Assembly (NCBI GenBank): GCA_003552585.1
Contig: PUNK01000004.1
Coordinates: 1-64,000, forward strand
Length of the DNA: 64,000 bases
Direction of reading: 5' to 3'
Origin: Thermoplasmata archaeon
Lineage (GTDB): Archaea > Thermoplasmatota > Thermoplasmata > Halarchaeoplasmatales > Halarchaeoplasmataceae
Numbering within the stretch: position 1 is the first letter of the stretch; each line of letters begins with the position of its first letter. The position numbers and the translations under genes are program-made. The notes under the pieces were generated by a model. That model saw only the letters and a program-made list of their open reading frames with translations, did no database searches and was not told the origin of the DNA. Shown in pieces: positions 43,878 through 45,275 of the stretch.

Positions 43878-45275
43878 TTAGTCTCTCCAACAAGCCACAT
43901 AATGATCTTTCCCAATCTTCACAAGCATCGGTTCTTCCTGTTTACACATGGTAGATGCCTCTTCACAGCGGGGATGAAACCTACATCCTGAAGGTGGATC
44001 GACATAGTCGGGTGTCTGTCCAGCGATACCCACCGAGAAGCCGCCACCAGTAAGTTTGGGTGTCGATTCTATCAGACCGATCGTGTAAGGATGCTCAGGT
44101 TTCTTGAATATGTCATCAGCATTCGCCACTTCGACCACAGTTCCACCATACATAACGTATATTCTATCAACAAATTTCTTGAGTGCACCTAAAGCTTGAG
44201 AAACGAAGATCGCTGAAAAATCTCTCTCAGCGAGGATATCTCCAATCAAACGTAGGACCTGAGCTTGTATGGTAACATCAAGGTTTGTAGTCGGTTCATC
44301 TGCAATAAGTAGATCTTTGGGCGTAGCAAGGCTCATCGCTATACAAACCCTCTGTCTCATCCCTCCACTTAACTGGAAGGGATAGCTGTCAAGAACTCTT
44401 TCGGGATCGGATAAGGATACTTCGTTGAAAAGTTCTATAGCTCTCTTTTTATATCCCTCAATGTCCCCATACACATCCAATCCAGAGTCACCAGATTCTA
44501 TAACATACTTATTTTTATTTTTAACTTTGATTATCGCTCGTTTCTCCTTTGTTTCTATCCTTGCATTAGTAGGGAGCGGGTAATCCTTTTTTTCAAAAAC
44601 TTCACTCAACTTCTCATGAGGATAGCCAGTTTTGAAGGATTTAGCATACTCTTGTTTTATAGAGAACAGATACATTTTGCCACCGCCCCCTCCAGAATAC
44701 TTAAGAATATCTTTCATCTGGGTCTTGATTTTGAATAGAGGGTTCAAAGAGGCGGTGGGATCCTGTGGGATCATGCTTACATGTTTCCTTCTAAGATTTA
44801 AAAGTTCCTTTTTATTCATGGTCAGAACATTTGTTCCAGTATGAATATTAAGGCCATTACTGGTTTGGTCTATGTTATATTGTTCACTACCATTTGCTTT
44901 AATTACCCATCTCTTGCCTATTTTTGACATTGTAGCATTATCCGGCAGCAAATTACCTTTTTCCTCAAAAGTAGCCTTTAATTTAGAAGCCACTGGCCCT
45001 TTTTTCAAGTACCTTTTGTAGAAGGGGTCCAATTCAAAAAGGTGTCTTCCTTTAAAATATATGCTGCCACTTTTCATGACTGCATTGCTCGCCAATATCT
45101 GATGAATCGACTTCATGGTTGTTGTTTTTCCACAACCTGATTCACCTATAACACCGATTTTCTCGCCTTTTTCAAGTGTCAAGTTCAGGTCTTTCAAAAC
45201 GTGCGAAAATCCCCTGTACGTTTCATAGCCAACGTTCAAATTTTCTATCTCTAGAACCGGTTCAGATGATTTCAT
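43878..45275 (-). CDS. Oligopeptide/dipeptide ABC transporter ATPase, OppD/DppD-type, with two related internal insertions
   Basis: VIGESGCGKTTTMKS, MIPQDPTASLNPLFKI, QLSGGMRQRVCIAMSL, LLIADEPTTNLDVT, SGCRFHPRCEEASTMC. Two ~65-80-aa insertions; H-loop position reads FVSQALG. Confidence 0.92.
   Translation of the reverse strand: MKSSEPVLEIENLNVGYETYRGFSHVLKDLNLTLEKGEKIGVIGESGCGKTTTMKSIHQILASNAVMKSGSIYFKGRHLFELDPFYKRYLKKGPVASKLKATFEEKGNLLPDNATMSKIGKRWVIKANGSEQYNIDQTSNGLNIHTGTNVLTMNKKELLNLRRKHVSMIPQDPTASLNPLFKIKTQMKDILKYSGGGGGKMYLFSIKQEYAKSFKTGYPHEKLSEVFEKKDYPLPTNARIETKEKRAIIKVKNKNKYVIESGDSGLDVYGDIEGYKKRAIELFNEVSLSDPERVLDSYPFQLSGGMRQRVCIAMSLATPKDLLIADEPTTNLDVTIQAQVLRLIGDILAERDFSAIFVSQALGALKKFVDRIYVMYGGTVVEVANADDIFKKPEHPYTIGLIESTPKLTGGGFSVGIAGQTPDYVDPPSGCRFHPRCEEASTMCKQEEPMLVKIGKDHYVACWRD

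Follow-up and report, generated by a model that had tools for sequence, protein, structure and literature searches.

Two extra segments of an archaeal OppD-type ATPase are probable copies of an undescribed 205-base DNA element found in frame in many unrelated genes

The OppD-type ATPase encoded in the window (the whole stretch of 64,000 nucleotides analysed here) carries two extra segments. The analysis largely supports the view that these segments are copies of an undescribed DNA element of about 205 bases, which inserts in frame in many unrelated archaeal genes. We put at about 80% the probability that a MITE-like element coding for a protein domain inserted twice, independently and long ago, to give the two OppD inserts. 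The case for an element rests on the dispersal of the unit in unrelated genes, the empty sites in relatives, the copies with terminal inverted repeats (TIR) and target duplications (TSD) in the genome G358, the multiple-of-three length, the coding substitutions and the predicted fold.

The OppD protein and its two insertions

The gene and the two element copies are located as follows.

43878–45275, minus strand: OppD/DppD-type ABC ATPase, 465 aa, with both insertions inside, assigned by Pfam, NCBIfam and orthologues
44841–45045, minus strand: element copy 1, 205 bp, HLFE codons plus 64 codons, aa 78–145, in the gap between Walker A and the Q-loop
44469–44673, minus strand: element copy 2, 205 bp, YLFS codons plus 64 codons, aa 202–269, in the helical domain before LSGGM

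The open reading frame matched ABC_tran (1.9e-25) and oligo_HPY (2.6e-18) in Pfam and OppD PRK09473 (1.5e-72) in NCBIfam. Walker A, the Q-loop, the LSGG signature, Walker B and the oligo_HPY C-terminus are all present. The surrounding operon is a conventional opp operon, in which OppA, OppB, OppC, OppD and OppF were assigned from position and sequence. The window protein is a member of the OppD/DppD ABC ATPases and differs from the compared orthologues by two insertions of about 71 aa, which none of them has. Orthologues from the same family are 320–321 aa long and 71–73% identical to it. The surplus of the window protein over them is 144–145 aa, about two times 71. Both inserts were missing from three same-family orthologues and from two more distant ones (L008 and L009 are among the relatives without inserts). 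Measured against the three same-family orthologues, insert 1 is exactly 71 aa, from G76 to G147.

The sequence-only reading had put one insert between Walker A and the Q-loop, the other in the helical domain upstream of LSGGM, and both positions proved correct. The alignment of OppD homologues from relatives, which it had suggested, showed both inserts absent. The OppF partner gave zero matches to the unit profile, in agreement with the earlier statement that it is free of the module.

The same reading had described a 49-aa unit with 17 of 49 residues identical between the inserts. A hand count gave the same number, and the gap-free shared unit is real, but the true unit is longer, occupying 205 bp in each copy. 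Ungapped over 64 aa, 20 of 64 residues were identical and the score was 84, compared with a maximum of 21 among 20,000 shuffles (z 8.2). With insert 1 as the query, the sole match in the window's whole genome was insert 2 (E 0.0014). Against the unit profile, in which both copies are themselves rows, copy 1 scored 125.6 bits (E 1.2e-36) and copy 2 scored 120.6 bits. Chance resemblance between two unrelated loop expansions would be in keeping with the observed identity of only about 35% over those 49 aa. Such an origin has a negligible probability given the z value, the equal length and gap-free alignment of the inserts, the orthologues without both of them, and the many further copies with the same pattern found by the profile that includes both.

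Dispersal across genomes and host proteins

The insert region, used as a query, matched an unrelated MMPL/RND membrane protein in the same-family genome G004 (E 6.6e-11, 42% identity). The matching block of 70 aa was absent from five same-family proteins, of which the nearest were 58–67% identical. The first unit profile consisted of three rows and was later iterated. Of the 16 genomes in the window's family, 15 had matches at E ≤ 1e-3 (14 of 15 besides the window genome), with up to 17 matches in one family genome by the three-row profile. The window genome has two copies only, both in OppD. The iterated profile gave 124 domain matches on the examined loci, and for 115 of these the open frame was 150 aa or longer. 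Outside the family, 14 of 392 genomes sampled from the phylum were positive, several of them far outside the class. No match was found in 250 sampled genomes from the phylum of L008, and 1 of 249 genomes from the phylum of L010 (the bacterial sample) had a match. These two samples point to a specific profile and to a scarcity of copies in bacteria. The single bacterial match (L158 in G522, E 3.9e-8) lies at the C-terminal end of a long frame, and a Pfam search of the part of this protein that was analysed gave no match. A plasmid search returned one weak match (Azospirillum, E 0.04) in a protein annotated as enterotoxin-family, and a phage search with the unit returned no match.

The profile search for further hosts that the sequence-only reading had proposed thus revealed many. 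Hosts identified by Pfam in transport and membrane functions were an MMPL transporter, ABC-2 permeases, OppC-like permeases, CcmF and an FtsX permease. Enzyme hosts included a signal peptidase, transglutaminases, subtilases, an M6 peptidase, an Mrr-type nuclease and ApbE. Other hosts were a PQQ propeller, HEAT-repeat proteins, a VWA protein, a PAS/histidine kinase, a KaiC-like protein and ribosomal protein uL3. The uL3 of G358, a genome of the window's class but of another family, is encoded at L125:1434-2828 and carries a module copy in the loop before ITPKGGF, which is unusual for this universally conserved ribosomal protein. Its residues 28–307 and 404–464 align with solved archaeal uL3 structures, and the protein is archaeal in type, which marks the window of this same class as archaeal too. 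Between the aligned parts lie 96 residues, where archaeal uL3 has about 7–11. The family of G358 was represented by G358 only, so the solved archaeal uL3 served as the reference for an empty site.

Several arrangements of the module were observed. The OppC-like permeases L083, L085, L087 and L090 (genera g2 and g4; 1050–1063 aa) hold about eight tandem degenerate copies, located between the N-terminal and permease domains according to a Pfam search of L085 only. One 1035-aa frame in G014 (L047:3048-6152) contains three copies head to tail. In G039, copies occur between calcium-binding TSP3-like repeats (DSDGDG) of large proteins (L069, L074, L078), one of which has a KaiC-like domain. ApbE-type proteins of several families (L142, L151, L152, L154 and L157) carry the module apparently at the same site; this shared insertion seems to be either ancient or site-favoured. 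L050, L063 and L070 are orthologues with a copy at the same site. Part of the module's spread is due to descent or duplication, as shown by the shared sites in ApbE and in L050/L063/L070 and by the arrays of about eight tandem copies.

Duplication within the OppD gene, with insert 2 derived from insert 1, would agree with the fact that one gene holds the genome's only two copies. The relationships among copies point elsewhere. Paired with the G004 MMPL copy, insert 1 scored 119.5, and paired with insert 2 it scored 84; L045/L046, L049 and further copies were likewise closer to insert 1 than insert 2 was. Insert 2 was as near to L045/L046 (86) as to insert 1. These scores come from 64-aa sequences and have limited resolution. 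Since insert 1 is nearer to copies in other hosts than to insert 2, two separate insertions are more likely than duplication, which we consider quite improbable. Of the two options in the sequence-only reading, the protein-coding insertion element is strongly supported by the dispersal, the empty sites and the G358 copies with TIR and TSD, and the within-gene duplication is disfavoured.

Repeat ends, target duplications and the encoded domain

In G358, the unit is also an intergenic DNA repeat, present at about 16 dispersed places with 75–97% identity. Just one of these copies falls within an open frame of at least 100 aa, and stop codons are present. Three copies (L159, L160 and L161) have perfect 13-bp TIRs, GTATCTGTTTAGC...GCTAAACAGATAC. 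Perfect and mutually different 8-bp TSDs, AAAATATG, CAAATTTT and AAGTTTTG, flank these three copies, and a fourth copy has 7 of 8 positions matching. The G358 copies measure 178 or 202 bp between the TIR ends, which with 8 bp added gives 186 or 210, each divisible by 3. Coding copies are typically 205 bp long, or 213 bp (71 codons) with the 8-bp duplication. By structure, the G358 intergenic repeat is a MITE, being short, transposase-free and dispersed, with TIR and TSD; the exception is the autonomous partner. The TIR search of G358 found no TIR pair around a transposase, and a partner may be located elsewhere. On one G358 contig, two TIR-like sequences 3.9 kb from each other have ordinary genes and no transposase between them, and this pair was rejected as the partner. 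G358 contig 11 also contains a short frame resembling TnpB/IS605 OrfB, including a zinc-finger motif (L182:1359-1979), with no link to the element seen.

Clean TIRs and TSDs were found in G358 and in a few other copies only. The coding copy in an FtsX-type gene of G097 (L139) has near-intact ends, with 11 of 13 TIR and 6 of 8 TSD positions matching. In 66 non-redundant coding copies, the pooled TSD test gave a weak excess (mean 2.61 vs 2.30, P 0.037); copies with at least 5 TSD matches numbered 6, compared with 3.9 expected (P 0.18). TIR pairing in the same 66 copies was on average at the cross-copy background. The slight TSD excess, together with TIR pairing no better within than between copies, indicates that most coding copies are presumably old. 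Copies between genes were present in G358 and hardly seen in the window's own family.

The ends of the window copies were examined in the same way. The left end of copy 2, GTATCTGTT, agrees with the G358 TIR, and its 5′ end reads GTATCTGTTCTCT where G358 has GTATCTGTTTAGC. Only 4 and 5 of 13 TIR positions pair in the two window copies. The flanks contain four candidate target duplications.

45046–45053, minus strand: left flank of copy 1, candidate for an eroded 8-bp target duplication, AAAGGAAG, 5/8 against the right flank, not significant alone
44833–44840, minus strand: right flank of copy 1, candidate for an eroded 8-bp target duplication, ACTGGAAC, weak
44674–44681, minus strand: left flank of copy 2, candidate for an eroded 8-bp target duplication, GGCAAAAT, 5/8, weak
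44461–44468, minus strand: right flank of copy 2, candidate for an eroded 8-bp target duplication, GGGGACAT, weak

The 5/8 flank matches at each OppD copy are compatible with eroded TSDs and prove nothing alone. The repeat ends of the OppD copies are too eroded to prove transposition. We infer that these copies arrived by transposition from their family membership, exact length and empty sites. The window element showed no palindromic folding (z +1.1), and a G358 copy gave z −2.5 (−2.45) with a stem at its ends.

AlphaFold predicted OppD insert 1, with a 36-copy alignment, as a compact domain with a mean pLDDT of 95.7 and the order E-H-H-E-E-E-E. The whole-OppD model from a 6-row alignment was poor (pLDDT 42) and was used only for the order of elements in the inserts. 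The structure prediction proposed earlier as a check of a common fold showed that the module folds confidently and that both inserts have the same order of strands and helices, the latter from the poor whole-protein model. The conserved columns follow a hydrophobic pattern (L9, L18, F22, L29, A33, W42/43, Y52, I54 and L61). Both the starting YLFS of the module and its LNIY-like end are encoded by the inverted repeats, and this accounts for the conservation of the module ends. The module had no match in the Pfam, NCBIfam, PHROG or PDB families, and the fold search of the PDB and viral libraries gave nothing at E ≤ 0.001. Side matches of single members in Pfam (Tox-REase-9, DrrA1-3_C and others; E 0.004–0.1) were attributed to chance because they differed between members.

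Pairwise differences at codon positions 1, 2 and 3 were 0.54, 0.45 and 0.69 in 88 coding copies, compared with 0.30, 0.30 and 0.36 in the intergenic G358 copies. Among four informative resident pairs, dN was lower than dS in three and equal to it in the fourth. These substitutions show that the coding copies are under protein-level selection.

These properties also bear on another explanation, namely an ordinary mobile protein domain (such as Ig-like or PKD) spread by recombination or shuffling, lying in loops by chance and captured secondarily by the G358 MITE. Such a domain would be expected to be conserved as protein and to fold confidently, and it would fit the tandem arrays in OppC-like and other proteins, the undetectable TIR and TSD of most coding copies, and the C-terminal position of the single sampled bacterial copy. 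However, the insertions are concentrated at a length of 205 bp plus 8, and their boundaries coincide with the TIR positions; OppD insert 1 has exactly 71 aa, and the gap in the MMPL comparison has 70 aa. Domain shuffling also does not readily account for the stop-bearing intergenic G358 copies with TIR and TSD, the near-intact TIRs within a gene (L139), or single domains interrupted by copies, including the uL3 and ABC ATPase cores. We consider it unlikely and favour insertion of a MITE-like element.

Proposed mechanism and relation to known elements

The insertion of a MITE-like element may be pictured as follows. An element with TIRs of about 13 bp (GTATCTGTTTAGC in G358) would duplicate 8 bp of its target on insertion, and the full coding insertion of about 213 bp, or 71 codons, would leave the host frame unshifted. 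The mover would most likely be a transposase acting in trans on the TIRs. One reading frame would yield a compact domain of about 69 aa, the first and last strands of which come from the inverted repeats. The termini of this domain would probably lie side by side, and hosts would carry the domain as a loop-borne bead. In-frame copies may survive owing to the multiple-of-three length and the compact bead, and copies in other orientations or frames would be lost or remain intergenic. The fold may be kept by selection on resident copies, either because misfolding harms the host or because some copies have gained a use. For OppD, the simplest reading would be a tolerated passenger, probably of no benefit, in two surface loops.

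A broader idea is offered tentatively. The unit may be a transposable protein domain, that is, a miniature element selected to code a self-folding, insertion-tolerant bead, with its inverted-repeat ends serving as first and last strands. Even proteins of the ribosome and ABC ATPases could receive it and stay intact, and it could steadily supply an archaeal phylum with new domains, while relatives in bacteria would be rare. Many inserts of archaeal proteins that are restricted to single lineages are explained by this undescribed domain family. A long-standing question, namely whether ready-folded domains can be brought into conserved proteins by mobile DNA, also becomes testable.

The literature search, in which most subscription journals were outside the scope, found no paper describing the element. 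Coding palindromic elements were previously known mainly from Rickettsia, Wolbachia and a few M. jannaschii genes, as peptides in non-structured segments. What is new is an archaeal element family that combines clear transposition marks in one genome, a conserved and confidently predicted fold and more than 100 in-frame matches, among them one in ribosomal protein uL3 and two in a single ABC ATPase.

Several prokaryotic MITEs contain ORFs, such as ERIC/RU-1, RU-2, RU-3, the 107-bp form of Correia and QMITE1 (PMC10969869, PMC2229807). They share with this element a size of 100–200 bp, TIR, TSD, intergenic copies and in-frame fusions. MITEs with ORFs are mostly intergenic with occasional fusions, whereas the copies of this element detected in the window's family are nearly all genic and in frame, with a conserved fold. 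PARCEL palindromic coding repeats are a mobile unit common to distant microbes and occur as amphipathic tandem repeats in surface proteins (PMC2996958). PARCEL is likewise a mobile coding unit but, unlike this element, is not described as inserting with TIR and TSD in housekeeping genes.

The Rickettsia palindromic elements (RPEs) and Wolbachia palindromic elements are described in the accounts cited as short repeats found between genes and in frame in unrelated genes, with a single conserved peptide in each family (Ogata et al. 2000, 2002, 2005; for reviews see PMC10969869 and PMC2229807). The reviews give RPEs a length of about 105–150 bp and long palindromes (PMC10969869, PMC2229807). Their TSD is unproven and entered as "?" (PMC2229807), and their insertions are in non-structured segments (PMC2996958). 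The window-type element resembles RPEs in occurring in frame within unrelated protein genes and, in G358, between genes. By description, it differs from RPEs in its 205-bp length, 13-bp TIR, 8-bp TSD in G358 and compact predicted alpha/beta domain, as well as in its archaeal hosts across a phylum and several copies per protein. The MJRE of Methanocaldococcus jannaschii are, as cited in two later papers, archaeal palindromic repeats with coding potential, some of them inside genes (Suyama, Lathe and Bork 2005, via PMC2229807 and PMC2996958). MJRE are thus also archaeal, repetitive and coding, but are described in these accounts from one species. Just a few coding MJRE insertions are said to have been found in the original study. 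From these comparisons, RPEs and the M. jannaschii MJRE appear to be the closest known kinds, and the element would work like them.
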